From Selenomonas sp. (lineage in GTDB: Bacteria > Bacillota > Negativicutes > Selenomonadales > Selenomonadaceae): DNA of 64,000 bases. How positions within the stretch are numbered: the first letter of the stretch is position 1; every line of letters starts with the position of its first letter. The notes beneath the pieces are model-generated. The model searched no databases. It had not been told where the DNA came from and saw only the letters and a program-made list of their open reading frames with translations. Shown here in pieces: positions 10,086 through 19,010 of the stretch. Position numbers and translations under genes: made by a program. The stretch is from positions 124,001-188,000 of the forward strand of contig JAKVOG010000003.1 of assembly GCA_022482925.1 (NCBI GenBank), read 5' to 3'.

Positions 10086-11861
10086 ATGTATCATGTCAAC
10101 TTGACAATCGGGCTTATTGGAATCCCTGAGGACGTAATACTGGACTGGAAACTGGTGCCCACGGAGCCACGTTATACGTATGCATTCTATATGGTAAAGG
10201 ATCTTGATGAAATTCAGTTGGCTGGACAGCCGCTGGTTATATTGAACCAGACAATGATAGATGAATATCCATTGCCCGTAATACGTGAGAAGATCGGCAG
10301 TGTCGGCAAACTGGTTCTTTGGGACAATGATTATGCATCGTTGTCTGAGGCCGATATGCGTTTGCTGGATGCCTGCTGGCCAGCAACGAAAAACAGCGCA
10401 TTGAATCGGATTACTTTTGAACGGTTTGTCCGCCGCTTGCGGGAGGAGAAAGATGCCTGGCTGGAACATATCTGGTTGCAGAAAACCATTAATATGCTGC
10501 CGGACATGATATGGTTCAAGGATCGGCAGGGACTGTATCTGGAGGTGAATGATGCCTTCTGTGCAAGGGTCAATAAGACGAAGGAAACGGTACGTGGGCA
10601 GGATCATTATACGATTTGGGGGATATCCCGCGAGGAATATGAAAGTTCGGATTATGTATGTGTGGATACCGATGCAGAAGTCATTAAAGCGGGTAAAACG
10701 TGCATCTTTGATGAAGAAGTCATGGGCGCGGATGGACTGCGGAAGCTGAAAACATACAAGACACCGATTTTTGAAGAAGATGGACAGATTATAGGCACGA
10801 TCGGTATTGCGCGGGATGTGACTGAGGCAGGTGAATACGAGCGGACTCTGCATGATCTGGCCTATCGGGACTATCTGACCAGTCTGTTCAATCGGGCTTA
10901 TCTGCTTAAAAAGATGGATGAGTATGGTTCCGGTCCGGTACTTATGATCGTATTCGATCTGGATTACTTCAAGGAACTTAACGACCATTATGGCCATCAG
11001 AGTGGAGATGCAGCGTTGATGGTTGTCGGGGAACTCATGCAACAGGAATTCCCCGATGGGTTCAATATCCGGTATGGTGGCGATGAATTCCTGACGGTAT
11101 TTTTTGGCGCAAGTGATAAAAACGTTATTTTGCCACGCGTTGAAAGATTTATGCATCGTCTGAAAAATTATTTTTCTTCGGATAAGGATCTGGGCTGTCT
11201 GACCGTCAGTGCAGGGATGCATTGCCAGACGATTACGGATGGCGCTATCGACTTGTTGTTCTCGGCTTGTGATAAGGCTCTTTATGCAGCAAAATTGCAT
11301 GGCCGGAATCGTGTTGTCCAGTATGAGGATATTGATCAGGTTATGTCGAAGCCAGCGATTATTCAGTTTGAAAGTCGTGAGGCAACGGAGAAGATGCTGC
11401 AAAGAGAAATTGGGGTATTAGGTCATTTGCGTGTGGCGCGGACAGGCGTTGCAGAGGCTGTTTCTGCGATGCTGGTATTTGCTGCGGATCTGCCAGAGAT
11501 TGAGACAAAGTATGGAAAGGCTTTGGTGCATCAGGTAATCGCTGGGGTAGTCAATATCATAAACGCCAGTATTCGTGACAGCGATAAACTGGGACGCTGG
11601 AGTGAGGAGACCTTTCTGGTAGTTTTGCCGGCGACGGACGTGAATGCGGCTGTGCGTGTGGCAGAACGCATTCGTCATCATATCAAGGATTTGGACATAT
11701 TGCCGGATGGTCAACCATTGTCAGTCAACTGCAGCATAGCGGCTATACGGCCTAATGAAGATTATAAGGCGTTCAGTCAGAGACTGGAAGATGCTTTGAC
11801 TAAAGCCCGTCAAGCCGGTAAAAATCTGTTGCACGTGGAAGATGTTTCCAGTCCTAAGTAA
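10086..11861 (+). CDS. PAS - GGDEF - degenerate GGDEF signalling protein (diguanylate cyclase)
   Basis: A 591-residue soluble protein. Residues 1-130 form an unassigned domain. A PAS domain follows at about 135-250 (MLPDMIWFKDRQG to GTIGIARDVTEA). Next is a canonical GGDEF domain (about 255-420) with LTSLFNRAYL, FDLDYFKELND and an intact GGDEF at residues 331-335, expected to make cyclic di-GMP from two GTP. The last 160 residues look like a second GGDEF fold, but its signature is replaced by RWSEETF near residue 505, so it is probably inactive and regulatory. GAGGAAGG precedes ATG 10086. The gene stands alone, with the polyamine leader RNA downstream. Confidence 0.88.
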   Translation: MYHVNLTIGLIGIPEDVILDWKLVPTEPRYTYAFYMVKDLDEIQLAGQPLVILNQTMIDEYPLPVIREKIGSVGKLVLWDNDYASLSEADMRLLDACWPATKNSALNRITFERFVRRLREEKDAWLEHIWLQKTINMLPDMIWFKDRQGLYLEVNDAFCARVNKTKETVRGQDHYTIWGISREEYESSDYVCVDTDAEVIKAGKTCIFDEEVMGADGLRKLKTYKTPIFEEDGQIIGTIGIARDVTEAGEYERTLHDLAYRDYLTSLFNRAYLLKKMDEYGSGPVLMIVFDLDYFKELNDHYGHQSGDAALMVVGELMQQEFPDGFNIRYGGDEFLTVFFGASDKNVILPRVERFMHRLKNYFSSDKDLGCLTVSAGMHCQTITDGAIDLLFSACDKALYAAKLHGRNRVVQYEDIDQVMSKPAIIQFESREATEKMLQREIGVLGHLRVARTGVAEAVSAMLVFAADLPEIETKYGKALVHQVIAGVVNIINASIRDSDKLGRWSEETFLVVLPATDVNAAVRVAERIRHHIKDLDILPDGQPLSVNCSIAAIRPNEDYKAFSQRLEDALTKARQAGKNLLHVEDVSSPK

Positions 11862-11868
11862 AAAAATC

Positions 11869-11896
11869 TTGACATTTCCGTTATTTTTGTTAAACT
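11869..11896 (+). promoter_or_regulatory. promoter of the structured RNA / polyamine operon
   Basis: TTGACA (11869-11874), a 16-base spacer and TAAACT (11891-11896). Transcription would begin near 11903, leaving about 340 bases before the decarboxylase start. Confidence 0.65.
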
Positions 11897-11902
11897 AGTT
11901 CT

Positions 11903-12218
11903 GAACTTAACGGATAGATACACATTAATCTATCGTTGCAATACTTAGGCCTGATACGGATTGGATTCCGTGAAAAGCTCATCGGACAGGGCTGGCCGTT
12001 GCCGGCGTGGCGAATGACGTCACATATTGATCGAGTTAAAAGCTCAATTTTATAAGTTGGTTACTTCATAACCACGTGCGGATGCACACCACTTGTGAAA
12101 CGTTCAATAGAGCAGGCCAGTATATGCAGGTAGACATAATGGTGTTACCCTAAAATACAAGTCAATTCCTGGAGATATTCACAGACAGTGCTGCATCTAT
12201 GCGGTACTGTCTTTTTTT
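11903..12218 (+). ncRNA. structured RNA, unassigned, leader of polyamine operon
   Basis: No protein is encoded in this interval between a clear promoter and a clear terminator. Local helices are evident: AACGGATAGAT pairs with ATCTATCGTT (about 11909-11938), ACGGA with TCCGT (about 11956-11971), GGTTA with TAACC (about 12059-12073), and GTGC with GCAC (about 12076-12087). I could not match it to motifs I know for RNase P RNA, tmRNA, SRP RNA, the T-box, or the lysine, SAM, TPP, cobalamin, c-di-GMP or guanidine riboswitches. It could be a free small RNA or a terminating riboswitch for the operon that follows. Confidence 0.55.
12184..12218 (+). terminator. intrinsic terminator at end of leader RNA
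   Basis: A 13-pair stem (12184-12211, beginning GACAGTG and ending ACTGTC, with two G-U pairs) is followed by seven T. It lies upstream of the decarboxylase start, so it either ends a stand-alone RNA or attenuates the operon. Confidence 0.85.
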
Positions 12219-12240
12219 GACCCTTGCAGTGGGAGGCGAT

Positions 12241-13710
12241 TTGCGGAAAATGAACCTGAATAATCAAAAACATGCGCCAATCTATGAGGCGCTGGAACGC
12301 TTTCGTAAGCAGCATGTTGTTCCATTCGATGTTCCTGGCCATAAACGGGGTCGGGGGAATCCGGAGCTCGTGGATTTCCTCGGGCAGCGTTGTGTCGGTA
12401 TTGATGTGAATTCAATGAAGCCGCTGGATAATCTCTGTCATCCGGTCTCGATTATCAAGGAAGCAGAGGAACTGACCGCAGATGCTTTCGGGGCAGCGCA
12501 TTCGTTCCTGATGGTCGGTGGCACGACATCTGCTGTGCAGGCCATGGTGCTGTCAGCCTGCAAAGCCGGTGATAAGATCATCCTGCCGCGAAATGTGCAT
12601 AAAAGTGCAATCAATGCACTGGTCCTGTGCGGGGCCGAGCCGGTCTATATCGATCCCAAGGTCGACGTGAAACTGGGTATTCCTTTGGGTATGGAGCTGG
12701 CTGATGTGCAGAAAGCCATGGAAGAGAATCCTGATGCCAAGGCGGTACTGATCAATAATCCTACGTACTATGGAATCTGCTCGGACCTGCGCGCGCTGGT
12801 GAAGCTGGCGCATGCCCATAATATGCTGGCCCTGGTTGATGAAGCGCATGGTACGCATTTTTATTTCAATGAGACATTGCCCTGCTCGGCAATGGAGGCC
12901 GGGGCAGATATGGCTTCGGTCTCGATGCACAAGTCAGGGGGCAGTCTTACGCAGAGTTCACTGCTGCTGCTTGGGCCGGATGTGAATGAAGGCTATGTGT
13001 CACAGATCATCAACCTGAGTCAGACGACCAGTGCGTCCTATCTATTGATGTCCAGTCTCGACATCAGCCGCCGGAATCTTGCTCTCAGGGGGCATGACTC
13101 CTTTGCCAAGGTAGCCGAGATGTCGCAGTATGCCCGTGAGGAGATCAATGAGATCGGCGGCTACTATGCCTATGGTCGGGAACTGATCAATGGCGGCAGC
13201 GTTTATGATTTCGATGTGACGAAGCTGGCAGTCCATACGCAGAGTATCGGACTGGCCGGAATCGAGGTCTATGATCTCCTGCGGGATGAGTATGATATTC
13301 AGATCGAGTTTGGGGATATCAATAACATCCTGGCCTATATCTCGATCGGCGACCATATCCAGGATATTGAGCGGCTCGTGGGGGCGCTGGCTGACATCCG
13401 TCGGCTTTATGCGCAGCCGCAGCGGACGTTGTTCTCGGCCGAGTATATCACACCGGCTGTCGTGACGACACCGCAGAAGGCGTTCTATGCGGACAAGGAA
13501 GCGGTTCCCATCCGGCAGTGCGCCGGACGAATCTGCAGTGAATTTGTCATGTGCTATCCGCCGGGTATCCCGATCCTGGCACCGGGGGAGATCATCACGA
13601 AGGAAATCATCGATTATATCCAGTATGCACAGGAAAAAGGCTGCTCGATGCAGGGTCCGGAAAGCCCGGATATTTCGACGCTGAATGTGCTGAAAGAGGG
13701 GACTTACTGA
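12241..13710 (+). CDS. speA: arginine decarboxylase, Orn/Lys/Arg fold-type I (SpeA)
   Basis: A PLP-dependent decarboxylase of the Bacillus SpeA group, about 489 residues. PLP motifs are VDEAHGTHF near residue 200 and the Schiff-base lysine in SMHKSGGSL near 230. The family also takes lysine or ornithine. The two agmatine-processing genes in the same operon make arginine the likely substrate, giving agmatine. Start choice is uncertain: GGGAGG (12231-12236) is four bases before TTG 12241 and thirteen before ATG 12250. An ATG further upstream lies inside the terminator hairpin and was rejected. The next gene starts two bases after the stop. Confidence 0.9.
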   Translation: MRKMNLNNQKHAPIYEALERFRKQHVVPFDVPGHKRGRGNPELVDFLGQRCVGIDVNSMKPLDNLCHPVSIIKEAEELTADAFGAAHSFLMVGGTTSAVQAMVLSACKAGDKIILPRNVHKSAINALVLCGAEPVYIDPKVDVKLGIPLGMELADVQKAMEENPDAKAVLINNPTYYGICSDLRALVKLAHAHNMLALVDEAHGTHFYFNETLPCSAMEAGADMASVSMHKSGGSLTQSSLLLLGPDVNEGYVSQIINLSQTTSASYLLMSSLDISRRNLALRGHDSFAKVAEMSQYAREEINEIGGYYAYGRELINGGSVYDFDVTKLAVHTQSIGLAGIEVYDLLRDEYDIQIEFGDINNILAYISIGDHIQDIERLVGALADIRRLYAQPQRTLFSAEYITPAVVTTPQKAFYADKEAVPIRQCAGRICSEFVMCYPPGIPILAPGEIITKEIIDYIQYAQEKGCSMQGPESPDISTLNVLKEGTY

Positions 13711-13711
13711 A

Positions 13712-14572
13712 ATGGAATTCTGGTTTGAAGAACTACATACCGACAATGTAAAAATGTCCATTCGGGTCGATAAGCAGCTTTTTTCGGCCAAGAGTGATTA
13801 TCAGCAGATTGACGTGTTTCATTCACCGGAATTCGGACGGTTCCTCTGCTCGAATGGCAGTGTAATCTTTTCGGAGGCGGATGAGTTCGTCTATGATGAG
13901 ATGATCGTCCATGTGCCAATGGCCGTACATCCGCATGTGAAGCGGGTGCTGGTGATTGGCGGCGGGGATGGCGGCGTGGCCCGCGAGCTCTCCTATTACG
14001 ATGAGATCGAGTCGATCGATGTGGTGGAAGAAGATCCGCTGTTCATCGAAGCCTGCAGGAAATGGTTCCCGGACAATGCCTGCGGGCTGGATGATCCGCG
14101 CGTGACCATTTCCAATGCCAACGGCCTGCGCTTCCTGCGCTCGCGCAAGGACTACTATGATCTGATCATCAATGACTGTACGGATCCATTGGGCCATACG
14201 GCGGGCATGTTCACGAAGGAATTCTATGGCAACTGCTACCGGGCACTCCATGATGATGGCATCATGGTCTATCAGCATGGCAGCCCGTTCTTCGACGAAG
14301 ACGAGGCATCCTGCCGTGCGATGCACCGGAAAGCATTTCGCAGTTTCCCAATCAGCCGGGTCTATCAGGCCCATATCCCTACCTGCCCGGCTGGTTACTG
14401 GCTGTTCGGCTTTGCCTCAAAGACCTATCATCCATTAAAGGATCTCAATGAAGAACGTTGGAATGAACGGCATATCAAGACCTGGTATTATACGACGCAT
14501 CTCCATCGTGGCGCGTTCATGCTGCCACGTTATGTAGAAGAACTATTGACAGAGGAGGAAACAAGATCATGA
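13712..14572 (+). CDS. speE: polyamine aminopropyltransferase (SpeE-like)
   Basis: A 286-residue Rossmann-fold aminopropyltransferase. Binding motifs are GGGDGGVAREL near residue 82 and the catalytic-loop NDCTDPLG near 152; overall length equals typical SpeE. These enzymes move an aminopropyl group from decarboxylated S-adenosylmethionine to putrescine, agmatine or another amine. No speD (AdoMet decarboxylase) is in this window, and the operon also encodes the alternative carboxyspermidine route. The real acceptor and donor supply are therefore open. It starts directly after speA and overlaps the next gene by ATGA. Confidence 0.9.
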   Translation: MEFWFEELHTDNVKMSIRVDKQLFSAKSDYQQIDVFHSPEFGRFLCSNGSVIFSEADEFVYDEMIVHVPMAVHPHVKRVLVIGGGDGGVARELSYYDEIESIDVVEEDPLFIEACRKWFPDNACGLDDPRVTISNANGLRFLRSRKDYYDLIINDCTDPLGHTAGMFTKEFYGNCYRALHDDGIMVYQHGSPFFDEDEASCRAMHRKAFRSFPISRVYQAHIPTCPAGYWLFGFASKTYHPLKDLNEERWNERHIKTWYYTTHLHRGAFMLPRYVEELLTEEETRS

Positions 14573-15828
14573 GCAAATTATTGGTTATCGGCTGCGGTGG
14601 CGTAGCCTCGGTGGCAATCCAGAAATGCTGCCAGAACAGCAAGGTATTCACGGAACTGTGCATTGCGAGCCGCACGCAATCGAAATGCGATGAGCTGAAA
14701 GCAAAATTGGCCGGCAAGACGGCAACCGTGATTACGACAGCACAGGTGGATGCGGACTCGGTAGAAGCTGTCAAGGCGCTCATCGAATCCTATCAGCCGG
14801 ATGCTGTGCTCAATGTTGCCCTCCCGTATCAGGACCTCACGATCATGGATGCCTGCCTGGCCTGTGGTGTACATTATATTGATACGGCCAATTATGAGCC
14901 GGAGGATACGGAAGACCCGAAATGGCGCGCCATCTATGAGAAGCGTTGCAAGGAGCTGGGGTTCTCGGCTTATTTTGATTATTCCTGGCAGTGGGATTAT
15001 GATCAGAAATTTAAGGAAGCCGGTCTCACGGCCCTGCTGGGTACGGGCTTTGATCCGGGTGTCACCAGCGTGTTCTCGGCCTATGCGCTGAAGCATTACT
15101 TTGACCGTATCGATACGATCGATATCCTCGATTGCAATGGCGGCGACCATGGCTATCCGTTCGCGACCAACTTCAACCCGGAGATCAATCTGCGTGAAGT
15201 CAGTGCGCCGGGCAGCTACTGGGAGAATGGCCACTGGGTGGAGACGGAGCCGATGGCAATCAAGCGGGAGTATGACTTCCCACAGGTCGGCCAGAAAGAC
15301 ATGTACCTGCTGCACCATGAGGAGATCGAGGCACTGGCCCGCAATATCCCGGGCGTCAAGCGCATCCGTTTCTTCATGACGTTCGGCCAGAGCTATCTGA
15401 CACACATGAGGTGCCTGGAAAATGTTGGGATGCTCTCGACTACGCCAATTGAGTTCAATGGGCAGGAGATCGTGCCGATCCAGTTCCTCAAGGCACTGCT
15501 GCCGGATCCGGCTTCGCTTGGCCCGCGCACGGTCGGCAAGACCAATATCGGTTGTATTTTCACGGGCGTGAAGGATGGCAAGGAAAAGACCATCTATATC
15601 TACAATGTCTGCGACCATCAGGAATGCTACAAGGAATTGGGCAGCCAGGCAATCAGCTATACGACCGGTGTCCCGGCCATGATCGGTACGGCACTGGTGA
15701 TCAGCGGCATCTGGAACAAGCGCGGTACGCTGACCACGGATGAGTTCGATCCGGATCCGTACATGGATATGCTGACGCAATATGGACTGCCATGGGTTGT
15801 CGAAGAAAATCCGGTTGTGGTGGAATAA
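14569..15828 (+). CDS. carboxynorspermidine/carboxyspermidine synthase (saccharopine dehydrogenase family)
   Basis: A 419-residue reductase of the saccharopine dehydrogenase family. It begins with the nucleotide-binding turn VIGCGGVASVA. The family reductively condenses L-aspartate semialdehyde with putrescine (or diaminopropane) using NADPH to give carboxyspermidine (or carboxynorspermidine). Some relatives use agmatine instead. The next gene encodes the matching decarboxylase, which supports this reading over a lysine-pathway role. Start ATG 14569 overlaps the speE stop by four bases, so translation is coupled. Confidence 0.92.
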   Translation: MSKLLVIGCGGVASVAIQKCCQNSKVFTELCIASRTQSKCDELKAKLAGKTATVITTAQVDADSVEAVKALIESYQPDAVLNVALPYQDLTIMDACLACGVHYIDTANYEPEDTEDPKWRAIYEKRCKELGFSAYFDYSWQWDYDQKFKEAGLTALLGTGFDPGVTSVFSAYALKHYFDRIDTIDILDCNGGDHGYPFATNFNPEINLREVSAPGSYWENGHWVETEPMAIKREYDFPQVGQKDMYLLHHEEIEALARNIPGVKRIRFFMTFGQSYLTHMRCLENVGMLSTTPIEFNGQEIVPIQFLKALLPDPASLGPRTVGKTNIGCIFTGVKDGKEKTIYIYNVCDHQECYKELGSQAISYTTGVPAMIGTALVISGIWNKRGTLTTDEFDPDPYMDMLTQYGLPWVVEENPVVVE

Positions 15829-15830
15829 GG

Positions 15831-16952
15831 ATGAAGCCATTACAGACGCCATGTTATGTGGTAGATGAAGCAAGACTGGAGGCCAATCTGCAGATCCTGG
15901 CCGGGGTGGCAGAGCGTACAGGCTGCCATATCCTGCTGGCGCAGAAGGCATTCTCCATGTTCCGGGTCTATCCGCTCATCCGGCAGTATCTTGCCGGCTC
16001 GACCGCCAGCGGCCTTTATGAGGCGCGGCTGGGGGCTGAGGAAATGGGCGGCGAGACGCATGTATTCTGCCCGGCCTATACGACGGCCGAGATGGAGGAA
16101 CTGTGCCGGATCTGTGATCATATCAGCTTCAATTCCCTGCGTCAGCTGGAACTGCACCGGCCAATCTGGCAGAAGGCCGGCGTCAGCGTCGGGCTGCGTA
16201 TCAATCCGGAATATTCGACGCAGGAAGGTCATGCTATCTATGATCCCTGTGCCCCGGGCTCCCGTCTGGGCATTCTGCGCCGGGATCTGCCGGAGCATCT
16301 GCCGGCTGGTGTCGAGGGCATCCATTTTCATACCCTCTGCGAGCAGGGAGCTGAGCCGCTGGCAGCCACTGTGGCTGCTGTTGAAGCTGCTTTCGGGCAG
16401 CTGCTGCATGAGGCGAAGTGGGTTAATCTTGGCGGTGGACATCATATCACCAAGCCGGACTATGATCTGGCTCTGCTGGAAAAGACAGTCCGTCATCTAC
16501 AGGATACCTATGCGGTGGAGGTCTATCTGGAACCGGGCGAGGCGATTGCCCTGGATGCCGGCTATCTCTACACGCAGGTAATGGATATCGTCGACAATAC
16601 GCTGCCCATCCTGATCCTCGATGCCTCGGCAGCCTGTCATATGCCCGATGTGCTGGAAATGCCATACCGCCCGCCGTTACGGGATGCTGGTCAGCCGGGA
16701 GAGAAGCCGTATACCTGCCGGCTGGGGGCCAGGACCTGCCTGGCCGGCGATGTGATCGGCGATTACAGCTTCGATACGATGCCGGCAATCGGCGATACCC
16801 TGATTTTTGAGGATATGGCCATCTATAGCATGGTGAAGAACAATACCTTCAACGGGATGCCCCTGCCGGACATCGTCCTGCAGCATAAGGATGGGCAGCT
16901 TGAGGTCGTACGCCATTTTGGCTATGAAGATTTTAAGGAGAGACTGTCATGA
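15831..16952 (+). CDS. nspC: carboxynorspermidine/carboxyspermidine decarboxylase (NspC)
   Basis: A 373-residue fold-type III (alanine-racemase-like) PLP decarboxylase. The PLP lysine is in LLAQKAFSMF near residue 40. The glycine-rich phosphate site NLGGGHH is near 200, EPGEAIALDAGYL is near 237, and DASAACHMPDVLEMPYRP is near 263. It removes CO2 from carboxyspermidine to give spermidine, or from carboxynorspermidine to give norspermidine. ATG 15831 is two bases after the dehydrogenase stop, with AATAAGG as ribosome site. An upstream in-frame ATG inside the previous gene was rejected. The next gene overlaps by four bases. Confidence 0.93.
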   Translation: MKPLQTPCYVVDEARLEANLQILAGVAERTGCHILLAQKAFSMFRVYPLIRQYLAGSTASGLYEARLGAEEMGGETHVFCPAYTTAEMEELCRICDHISFNSLRQLELHRPIWQKAGVSVGLRINPEYSTQEGHAIYDPCAPGSRLGILRRDLPEHLPAGVEGIHFHTLCEQGAEPLAATVAAVEAAFGQLLHEAKWVNLGGGHHITKPDYDLALLEKTVRHLQDTYAVEVYLEPGEAIALDAGYLYTQVMDIVDNTLPILILDASAACHMPDVLEMPYRPPLRDAGQPGEKPYTCRLGARTCLAGDVIGDYSFDTMPAIGDTLIFEDMAIYSMVKNNTFNGMPLPDIVLQHKDGQLEVVRHFGYEDFKERLS

Positions 16953-18064
16953 TCAATCCACAGCCCTGCCCGGCTGAGGTAGGCTTCTATATGCCGGCAG
17001 AGTTTTCCCCGCATGACGGGACAATCCTGATCTGGCCGGTGCGCCCCGGCAGCTGGGGACTTGATCCCCGCCCGGCGCAGCGGGCCTTTGCGGATGTGAT
17101 CCGGGCCATTGCTGTGCACGAGCAGGTCATCCTGATTGCTGATGAGGCCCATGCAGATGAAGCACGGGCTGCTGTCGGCGGACTGGCGGATCTGTGCGTT
17201 TTCCCGACCGAGGATTCCTGGGCCAGGGATTCCGGGCCCACTTTTGTCACGGATGGGCAGCGGGTCCGTGGCATCAGCTGGCGCTTCAATGCCTGGGGCG
17301 GCACTTTTGATGGACTTTATACGCATTGGGAGAATGATGATGCGCTGGCTGGTCGGATCTGTGATGCCCTGCAGCTGGACTGTTATGATTTGGGTGATTT
17401 CGTGCTCGAAGGCGGCTCTATCCATACGGATGGGGAAGGGACACTGCTCGTGACCGAAGCCTGCCTGCTGAGCCCCGGCCGCAATCCGGAACTGACCAGG
17501 GAACAGATCGAGGCCCGGCTGAAATCGGCCCTGGGCGTAGAGAAGGTACTCTGGCTGCCGCGTGGCATCTATAACGATGAGACGAACGAGCATGTCGATA
17601 ATATGTGTGCGTTCCTGGCACCGGGCGAGGTTGTGCTGGCCTGGACGGACCAGGTCGATGACCCGCAGTATGCGTTATCGCAGCAGACATTTGATTATCT
17701 GTCTCGGGTGACGGATGCGAAGGGGCGGCGGCTGAAGATACACAAGCTGCCTATCCCGGACCATCCAATCACGATAACGGCGGCTGATATGCATTCGTAT
17801 CACTTTGAGCCCGGGGAGGATGCCCGCATCGTCGGCGAACGGCTGGCCGCGAGCTATGTAAATTTCTATTTTGCCAATCAGTGTGTGATCGTGCCCCGGT
17901 TTGGCGGTGAAAATGCGGCCAGCGATGAGCGGGCCCTGCAGCTGCTGACGGAGCTCTGCCCGGACCGGCAGGTCATCGGCATCGATGCCCGGGCCATCCT
18001 GCTGGGCGGAGGCAATATTCATTGCATCACCCAGCAGATACCGAAAGGAGGCCTATCAAAATGA
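16949..18064 (+). CDS. aguA: agmatine deiminase (AguA)
   Basis: A 371-residue member of the guanidino-group-modifying (pentein) superfamily. It hydrolyses agmatine to N-carbamoylputrescine and ammonia. Signature pieces are in order: WARDSGPTFV near residue 90, the catalytic histidine in DETNEHVDN near 213, and the nucleophile cysteine in GGGNIHCITQQIPKG near 358. ATG 16949 overlaps the nspC stop, and its own stop overlaps the start of aguB, so it sits inside a tightly coupled operon. It supplies the second step from arginine to putrescine. Confidence 0.96.
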   Translation: MINPQPCPAEVGFYMPAEFSPHDGTILIWPVRPGSWGLDPRPAQRAFADVIRAIAVHEQVILIADEAHADEARAAVGGLADLCVFPTEDSWARDSGPTFVTDGQRVRGISWRFNAWGGTFDGLYTHWENDDALAGRICDALQLDCYDLGDFVLEGGSIHTDGEGTLLVTEACLLSPGRNPELTREQIEARLKSALGVEKVLWLPRGIYNDETNEHVDNMCAFLAPGEVVLAWTDQVDDPQYALSQQTFDYLSRVTDAKGRRLKIHKLPIPDHPITITAADMHSYHFEPGEDARIVGERLAASYVNFYFANQCVIVPRFGGENAASDERALQLLTELCPDRQVIGIDARAILLGGGNIHCITQQIPKGGLSK

Positions 18065-18936
18065 GTCTGGTAAAAACGGCTGCCATCCAGCTGGAGTGTG
18101 TGGCGGATCCCGCAGCAAATCTTGCGCATGCGGAAAAACTGGTACGTCAGGCGGCAGCTGATGGCGCAAAGATCATCCTGCTGCCGGAATTATTCGAGCG
18201 TCCGTATTTCTGTCAGGAGCGGCGCTATGATTATTACGCCTATGCCACACCCGTCGCTGAGAACCCGGCGGTAAAGCGGCTGTCTGCCGTTGCGAAGGAA
18301 CTGGAAGTAGTCTTGCCGGTCAGCTTCTATGAGAAGGATGGCACGAGGCTTTTTAATTCCATTGCCATGCTTGATGCGGATGGTTCAGTAATGGGCGTCT
18401 ACCGGAAGACCCATATCCCGGATGACCATTACTATCAGGAAAAATTCTATTTTACGCCGGGCAATACGGGCTTCAAGGTCTGGGAGACCCGCTATGGCAA
18501 AGTCGGCGTCGGCATCTGCTGGGATCAGTGGTTCCCGGAGGCTGCCCGCTCGATGGCCCTGCTGGGGGCTGATATTCTGCTGTATCCGACGGCAATCGGC
18601 AGCGAGCCAATCCTTGAGGTCGACAGCTCCGGTCACTGGATGCGGACGATGCAGGGACACTCGGCAGCGAATATCCTGCCCGTGATGGCGGCTAACCGCT
18701 ATGGGCTGGAGACCGTGACGCCCTGTCCGGAGAATGGAAATCAGTCCTCCAGCCTGACCTTTTATGGGTCCAGCTTCATCACGGATGAGACGGGGGATAT
18801 CCTGACCAGGGCTGGCCGGTCAGGTGACGAGATCCTGACCGCGGAATTTGATTTCGATCAGATTCGTACCGAGCGTCTGTCCTGGGGACTGTTCCGTGAC
18901 CGTCGCCCCGAAACCTATCAGCAATTGACCCGTTGA
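18061..18936 (+). CDS. aguB: N-carbamoylputrescine amidase (AguB)
   Basis: A 291-residue nitrilase-superfamily amidase that converts N-carbamoylputrescine to putrescine, CO2 and ammonia. The catalytic triad is visible: Glu in LLPELFERPYF near residue 43, Lys in YRKTHIPDDHYY near 118, and Cys in GICWDQWFPEAA near 156. GGAGG precedes ATG 18061, which overlaps the aguA stop. It is the last gene of the operon and is followed by a long-loop terminator shared with the converging MFS gene. Confidence 0.96.
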   Translation: MSLVKTAAIQLECVADPAANLAHAEKLVRQAAADGAKIILLPELFERPYFCQERRYDYYAYATPVAENPAVKRLSAVAKELEVVLPVSFYEKDGTRLFNSIAMLDADGSVMGVYRKTHIPDDHYYQEKFYFTPGNTGFKVWETRYGKVGVGICWDQWFPEAARSMALLGADILLYPTAIGSEPILEVDSSGHWMRTMQGHSAANILPVMAANRYGLETVTPCPENGNQSSSLTFYGSSFITDETGDILTRAGRSGDEILTAEFDFDQIRTERLSWGLFRDRRPETYQQLTR

Positions 18937-18940
18937 ACGT

Positions 18941-19010
18941 AAAAAGGCTATTGCCTATCAGATTCTTACTTATTAAGCAGGATCTTTTTAGCGCAATAGC
19001 CTTTTTATTT
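18941..19010. terminator. bidirectional terminator between aguB and MFS gene
   Basis: AAAAAGGCTATTG (18941-18953) and CAATAGCCTTTTT (18994-19006) are a perfect 13-base inverted repeat. The loop is about 40 bases, and A and T runs allow it to work from either side. Confidence 0.75.

Follow-up and report, generated by a model that had tools for sequence, protein, structure and literature searches.

A conserved leader RNA of Bacillota polyamine genes, probably a riboswitch that turns transcription off in response to spermidine

The published spermidine riboswitch is a variant of SAM-I with 13 representatives, described by Salvail et al. (2023; PMC10853860), who, in the available text of that paper, call the earlier evidence for polyamine riboswitches unconvincing and expect more classes to exist. 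Closer to the locus described here is the Rfam family RF02440 (SpF59 sRNA, or ldcC RNA), for which we found no ligand in the literature searched, most subscription papers and all preprints lying outside the scope of that search. The name ldcC is said to come from Weinberg et al. 2017. The pneumococcal copy, known as F59, srn235, SN20 or Spd_sr49, is listed at TIGR4 869478-869804 (PMC12323649) and has been placed between SP0915 and SP0916 (PMC3395615); SP_0916 is arginine decarboxylase (PMC7531197), and the available portions of three sources count the pneumococcal RNA among putative sRNAs (PMC12323649, PMC3395615, PMC4387999).

We analyzed a leader at positions 11903-12219 (plus strand) of a 64,000-nt stretch of Selenomonas sp. 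DNA (hereafter the window), which lies between a sigma-70-type promoter and a 13-pair terminator, just 5′ of an Orn/Lys/Arg decarboxylase gene starting at 12250 (Table 1). Compared with its homologues, it appears to be a conserved cis-regulatory RNA that is best explained as a spermidine-responsive OFF riboswitch acting on transcription. The initial annotation of this DNA had reported a highly structured RNA devoid of coding frames, with four local helices, a TTGACA promoter and a 13-pair terminator followed by seven Ts, and all of this was borne out. Each of the four helices was located in the sequence (ACGGA/TCCGT within 11956-11971, GGTTA/TAACC at 12059-12063/12069-12073 and GTGC/GCAC at 12076-12079/12084-12087 among them), the promoter matched the consensus at 10 of 12 positions, and the longest plus-strand frame inside the leader was only 39 aa. 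The T tract has six Ts, or seven counting the last paired T. The calculated folding energy of 11903-12219 was -101 kcal/mol, compared with -77.65 (sd 4.96) for 100 dinucleotide shuffles, none of which came as low (z = -4.71). A consensus scan of 11700-12400 returned 4 promoter-like sites against 1.0 expected, and a terminator scan returned 1 against 0.5 expected; the promoter is also present in the sister genome. For the decarboxylase, the start at 12250, behind GGGAGG, is better placed than the longer ORF start at 12199. Upstream of the leader, the product of 10086-11861 is a PAS protein in which two GGDEF stretches occur, and a similar gene lies upstream in the sister species.

Table 1. Features of the leader and the operon behind it, in window coordinates.
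Feature	Position	Strand	Basis or remark
Promoter	11869..11896	+	TTGACA 11869-11874, 16-nt spacer, TG-extended TAAACT 11891-11896; consensus scan, 10/12 matches
5′ local hairpin, outside family core	11909..11937	+	Sequence: AACGGATAGAT 11909-11919 with ATCTATCGTT 11928-11937, one-base bulge
Outer helix P1, encloses core	11937..12128	+	11937-11945 with 12119-12128; MFE, flank pairing across relatives
Conserved core	11947..12110	+	Covariance model R1, G000:C3:135947-136110, E 2.8e-26; window copy among the 14 rows used for R1
5′ domain (part modelled by RF02440 in relatives)	11948..12004	+	Alignment and sequence
Pa	11948-11951/11994-11997	+	5′ domain helix
Pb	11956-11961/11966-11971	+	5′ domain helix
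Pc	11976-11979/11990-11993	+	5′ domain helix
Loop CGGACAG	11983-11989	+	Candidate pseudoknot of 5′ domain
Strand UGCCG	12000-12004	+	Candidate pseudoknot of 5′ domain
Helix Pd	12007..12023	+	Variable in sequence, covarying
Nested three-way junctions	12025..12109	+	Pe/Pg near-invariant; Pf, Ph, Pi covarying
Pe	12025-12030/12104-12109	+	Junction helix
Pf	12033-12035/12043-12045	+	Junction helix
Pg	12050-12057/12091-12098	+	Junction helix
Ph	12059-12063/12069-12073	+	Junction helix
Pi	12076-12079/12084-12087	+	Junction helix
Proposed antiterminator, left part (3′ strands of Pi and Pg)	12080..12096	+	13 pairs with 12185-12190 and 12192-12198, -14.0 kcal/mol
Intrinsic terminator	12183..12218	+	Hairpin 12183-12212, 13 pairs, then T tract; 5′ arm is right part of proposed antiterminator
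Shine-Dalgarno-like GGGAGG and decarboxylase ATG	12231..12252	+	Sequence; GGGAGG at 12231-12236
Orn/Lys/Arg decarboxylase, first controlled gene	12250..13710	+	Pfam OKR_DC_1, 232 bits
SpeE, carboxy(nor)spermidine dehydrogenase, NspC, AguA, AguB	13712..18936	+	NCBIfam, Pfam

At the gathering score, Rfam gave no match in the window, and a search of the leader (11840-12300) up to E 10 returned neither RF02440 nor RF00162. Atu_C4 and Thr_leader, weak matches at permissive thresholds, both end in the terminator and were rejected. A plain DNA search (4 of 60 genomes, the source genome included) had suggested a rare, sporadic element, an impression that was overturned by a covariance model and a pattern scan. 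The model, R1, which comprises 14 aligned cores with the window copy among them, matched 26 of 380 genomes of the class and 20 of 398 of the phylum, with one copy in each and the source genome counted in both. Twenty-four of the 26 class matches had E < 1e-20, the others being G258 (E 1.7e-4) and G008 (E 4.8e-3). The core of one relative, used as a query, listed 22 of 200 class genomes, some of which were not true matches. The pattern scan of public genomes yielded at least 120 stretches; among the matches listed were Paenibacillus, Bacillus, Neobacillus, Blautia, Faecalibacterium, Acetobacterium, Acidaminococcus and Phascolarctobacterium, and the element occurred, again among the matches listed, in Bacilli, Clostridia and Negativicutes. 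R1 recovered 100 of 100 and 65 of 65 gathered loci (L035-L199, n = 165); five pairs of these were identical over the core plus 30 nt (L037/L038 and four across collections), leaving 160 distinct loci, and 116 representatives remained below 85% identity.

Gathering relatives and testing covariation had been proposed along with the initial annotation, and in all three alignments the covariation score exceeded that of 500 of 500 shuffles. In A4 (14 cores including that of the window, aligned by sequence, with the structure drawn from those same rows), the 52 pairs, candidate pseudoknot included, were 93.6% formed, 17 pairs varied on both sides, and covariation scored 0.181 against 0.090 (sd 0.009) for shuffled alignments (0/500 reaching it); the count of further pair types in A4 was not unusual, the same number being reached by 63 of 500 shuffles. 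A5 (100 rows) and A6 (65 rows, 64 distinct) were both fitted to the structure of the covariance model. Both-side changes were seen there in 28 of 47 pairs (A5; covariation 0.251 vs 0.089 shuffled, 0/500) and in 30 of 47 pairs (A6; 0.274 vs 0.118, 0/500). When partners were slid by 1-3 columns, about 30-41% of pairing was left in A4, A5 and A6 alike. Pe and Pg are nearly constant and give little covariation signal for or against either helix; moreover, segments of Pe, Pf, Pg and Ph were specified in the pattern by which the 120 pattern-scan loci (A5 together with part of A6) were picked, so that invariance there partly reflects selection. In 139 of 162 loci, the flanks that would form the outer helix P1 paired better with each other than after swapping (-21.4 vs -15.9). 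The whole fold spans about 165-200 nt, with near-invariant unpaired and junction bases (A5). Judged from these alignments, a conserved, covarying, aptamer-like core is present, as would be expected of a riboswitch.

We then compared the element with RF02440, whose model is 54 nt long, spans only Pa, Pb, Pc and UGCCGA, and carries the Rfam type 'Gene; sRNA'. At the gathering score of 37.2 bits, the family was matched by 22 of the 33 relatives tried (13 of 13, then 9 of 20 chosen as divergent) and was unmatched in 11 of the 33 loci, namely the window copy (L055), its sister (L054), G258, G008 and seven others. The label 'unassigned' in the initial annotation thus holds for the window itself at Rfam thresholds and fails for the family, since 22 of 33 relatives match RF02440; by homology, the window element is a divergent variant of a catalogued RNA family. 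The pairing of CGGACA with UGCCG showed no covariation in the alignments. The two sides tended to co-occur: of the 143 loci that have the CGG loop, 135 also have a GCC(G/A) partner, whereas GCCG occurs in 5 of the 20 lacking the loop, under a partner pattern that was slightly looser for the former group. The CGG loop was missing in 20 of the 163 loci long enough to judge, which indicates that the part modelled by RF02440 can be absent while the three-way-junction heart persists (L087, L108, L177), and the model may describe an accessory domain. Members without the 5′ domain modelled by RF02440 include L087, L108, L177, L062, L083 and L093. In five dehydrogenase-first loci (L070, L114, L124, L126, L153), a short loop that keeps CGG (CGGU...) stands in place of CGGACA, and the GCCG partner is present in 5 of 5.

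Downstream of the leader, the initial annotation had placed a six-gene polyamine operon, and Pfam and NCBIfam identified all six genes. SpeE, NspC, AguA and AguB scored above curated NCBIfam cut-offs, and the third gene reached 391.5 bits against the carboxynorspermidine synthase model, below its cut-off of 800. Such an operon leads from arginine through agmatine to putrescine, and then to spermidine by two routes; a SpeD homologue lies on another contig of the source genome. Between aguB and a convergent transporter gene, 18943-19010 holds a long inverted repeat (AAAAAGGCTATTGC ... GCAATAGCCTTTTT), probably a two-way terminator.

Across the gathered loci, the nearest recognised downstream gene was a decarboxylase in 89, carboxyspermidine dehydrogenase in 33 and speD in 27 (149 of 165 loci), and a PotA-type gene lay downstream in 11 more. 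Three of these 11 were called by NCBIfam (L091 and L176 above the NF043075 cut-off, L083 above that of TIGR01187) and the other eight from amino-terminal sequence. NspC came next in 22 of 33 dehydrogenase-first loci, the other 11 sequences ending within 1,500 nt, and a decarboxylase came next in 25 of 27 speD-first loci. Altogether, genes of polyamine synthesis or uptake lay 3′ of the RNA on the same strand in 160 of 160 readable loci, the remaining 5 of 165 ending within 403 nt; among the 116 representatives below 85% identity, all 112 readable loci preceded polyamine genes. In L130, a frame of about 130 aa, which we take to be PII-like, sits between the RNA and potA, and upstream of the RNA copy in L043, at a distance of about 1-1.3 kb, are a SAM riboswitch (RF00162; L043:2719-2822, minus strand) and a tRNA.

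A terminator-like hairpin was found by script 3′ of the core in 160 of 165 loci, and the 157 within 230 nt, a few of which may be miscalled, were used to examine pairing of the terminator 5′ arm with the leader, up to four loop bases being added to the arm. For 118 of 157 loci, the most favourable partner of the arm was formed by the 3′ strands of Pi and Pg, compared with 200 of 628 shuffled arms, with a mean energy of -14.8 there against -12.3 at the best other place; among representatives below 85% identity, the corresponding counts were 76 of 108 and 166 of 648. By first gene, own and shuffled arms scored 32/32 vs 41/96 (dehydrogenase), 58/84 vs 77/252 (decarboxylase), 19/27 vs 18/81 (speD), 6/11 vs 3/33 (potA) and 3/3 vs 4/9 (unread). 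L057 provides an example in which the pairing includes CAUCACUUGU with ACAGGUGAUG (-15.1). The window leader has its best site, with loop bases included, where 12080-12086 pairs with 12192-12198 and 12090-12096 with 12185-12190 (-14.0, the next being -11.3), whereas with loop bases excluded the best site lies elsewhere (-11.1 vs -8.0 at the Pi/Pg strands). The signal was weaker without loop bases in general: the Pi/Pg strands came first for 106 of 157 own arms and for 254 of 785 shuffled ones, mean energies were -12.3 for own, -10.8 for swapped and -9.6 for shuffled arms, own arms beat the swapped mean in 106 of 157, and 5 or fewer of 100 shuffled arms were as good in only 45 of 157. Another stretch of the leader paired better with the arm in 39 of 157 loci, for example in the sister species (-13.9 vs -9.7) and G008 (-14.6 vs -9.7). 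With the sister species and G008 excepted, a mutually exclusive expression platform is present, seen as complementarity only. The metabolite-sensing attenuator suggested in the initial annotation gains support from the polyamine contexts (160 of 165 loci) and from core strands that would be able to sequester the terminator arm.

In the mechanism we propose, the 3′ strands of Pg and Pi would leave the core when polyamine is scarce and base-pair with the terminator's 5′ arm, and RNA polymerase, with this antiterminator formed, would read into the operon. When polyamine is plentiful, the ligand, most probably spermidine, would hold Pg and Pi together, the terminator would form near 12218, and the operon would be off. 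Because formation of Pg and Pi excludes the antiterminator, stabilisation of the core would favour termination, i.e., an OFF switch. Spermidine is the shared end product or cargo of the decarboxylase, SpeD, the carboxyspermidine dehydrogenase/decarboxylase and PotABCD, and it is our leading ligand because, with a single sign of control, it would suit each of the four gene sets. The dehydrogenase route consumes putrescine as a substrate, so that shutting it off in response to putrescine or agmatine would hardly be sensible. Of the candidate ligands named in the initial annotation, spermidine fits best, and agmatine and arginine fit poorly given the 33 loci before carboxyspermidine dehydrogenase and the 11 before PotA. 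We regard it as reasonably probable that the leader acts in cis to control the polyamine genes by transcription attenuation, most likely as a riboswitch with an OFF sign and with spermidine as its most probable ligand. Homology, helices, gene context and the competing pairing are supported by comparison; direct binding, the identity of the ligand as spermidine, the OFF sign and the transcription of the leader itself are what we infer.

The same attenuator could instead respond to a different pathway compound (putrescine, agmatine, carboxyspermidine, SAM or decarboxylated SAM), and its specificity might vary by clade. The 89 decarboxylase-first loci, whose first enzyme directly yields agmatine, putrescine or cadaverine, and the 27 speD-first loci would suit this, as would the NCBIfam name of PotABCD, a spermidine/putrescine transporter; yet all 32 dehydrogenase loci tested show the same OFF layout before a route that uses putrescine as a substrate, and neither agmatine nor SAM takes part directly in that route or in uptake; we consider a different ligand unlikely. 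It is improbable, in our estimation, that the leader is bound in cis by a protein or other macromolecule rather than by a small ligand: large conserved leaders can serve as such targets, but a fold of about 165-200 nt with near-invariant unpaired and junction bases, kept across Bacilli, Clostridia and Negativicutes among the matches listed, argues against it.

An independent small RNA, here taken as acting in trans, was the other option raised in the initial annotation. The leader does have its own promoter and terminator, RF02440 is filed as 'Gene; sRNA', and the pneumococcal relative bears the name F59 and, in the accessible parts of the sources, stands among putative sRNAs (PMC12323649, PMC3395615, PMC4387999). 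Against this, same-strand polyamine genes follow in 160 of 160 readable loci, the core is complementary to the terminator, and a terminated leader would give the same band; in our view this option is highly improbable. Attenuation through a translated leader peptide starting at a GUG inside ACUUGUGAAACGG, whose frame reads VKRSIRVVKV in several loci, is scarcely credible, as the frame ranges from fewer than 5 to more than 60 codons, shifts and stops at varying points, begins within helix Pg, and in the window stops soon. A leader-peptide frame at GUGAAACGG was likewise dropped.

Within the genus of the window, an OKR decarboxylase homologue was present in 22 of 22 genomes, and a closer one (63-100% identity) in 19. 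The full RNA was found only in G000 and G015, and a reduced RNA in G008; the 14 other genus decarboxylase loci (L203-L210, L212-L217) had short leaders that lack the element, and L211 and L218 were unreadable. The element may be on its way out of this lineage, or else it may have been regained. The reduced copy of G008 (L060/L202, L060:1501-1682) retains the terminator, Pe, some of Pg and a Pf that is enlarged; its CGGACAG/UGCCG domain is gone, and the decarboxylase is still next. A second OKR decarboxylase homologue of the source genome (G000:C1:446772-447887, minus strand) is 42% identical, and paralogues of about 40% occur across the genus. The window copy lacks the GAGUAGUAAAAGU...GACUCU tail common in relatives; by a loose pattern, a GAGU tail stands right behind the core in 134 of 165 loci. 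The GGCC of Pa in the window can extend P1 with CAGGCC, which is 9.2 kcal/mol better in silico than Pa, and Pa is absent from the window MFE. This alternative, in which GGCCTG (11948-11953) can pair with CAGGCC (12113-12118) in competition with Pa, is shared by the sister species, and may represent either a second switch or drift.

If the proposed reading is true, it would show by what means polyamine output is set in many bacteria of gut and soil, and the catalogued sRNA family would model only part of the real element. The element offers a concrete terminator/antiterminator arrangement before decarboxylase, SpeD, carboxyspermidine and PotABCD genes. We are evenly divided on a broader proposal, namely that this is a widespread Bacillota class of spermidine riboswitch, unrelated to SAM-I, with a large aptamer that shuts two synthesis routes and import; that it came to be filed as a short sRNA because the model holds only a losable accessory domain; and that the versions in the genus of the window are divergent and partly dismantled.

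Among described systems, RNAs likewise lie before polyamine genes in the case of speF and odc1, leaders of alphaproteobacterial ornithine decarboxylase genes, and the Veillonella potE motif, as reported in the available text of PMC11477304 and PMC8632094. No Rfam family matches the window, and potE and odc1 are compared here from their descriptions; among the 165 loci, no potE-first locus was recognised, with reference proteins that did not include potE. As far as the accessible text on the SAM-I-variant spermidine riboswitch goes, that RNA resembles our proposed model for the window in being an OFF switch in a polyamine-gene leader, with the left arm of the terminator occluded by an antiterminator, and differs in that the window leader has no RF00162 match up to E 10. 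RF02440 differs in extent, covering 54 nt of the 5′ domain only, whereas the element described here consists of a core of about 165 nt together with P1, the terminator and the antiterminator; it differs also in its Rfam type, sRNA and not cis-regulatory. The GGCC/GGCC strands of Pa can pair in the window, where the alternative pairing is 9.2 kcal/mol better in silico. The likeness to RF02440 lies in the CGGACAG loop and UGCCG strand of the window copy, and in the fact that this copy and its RF02440-positive relatives are found by one full-length model and share their gene context.
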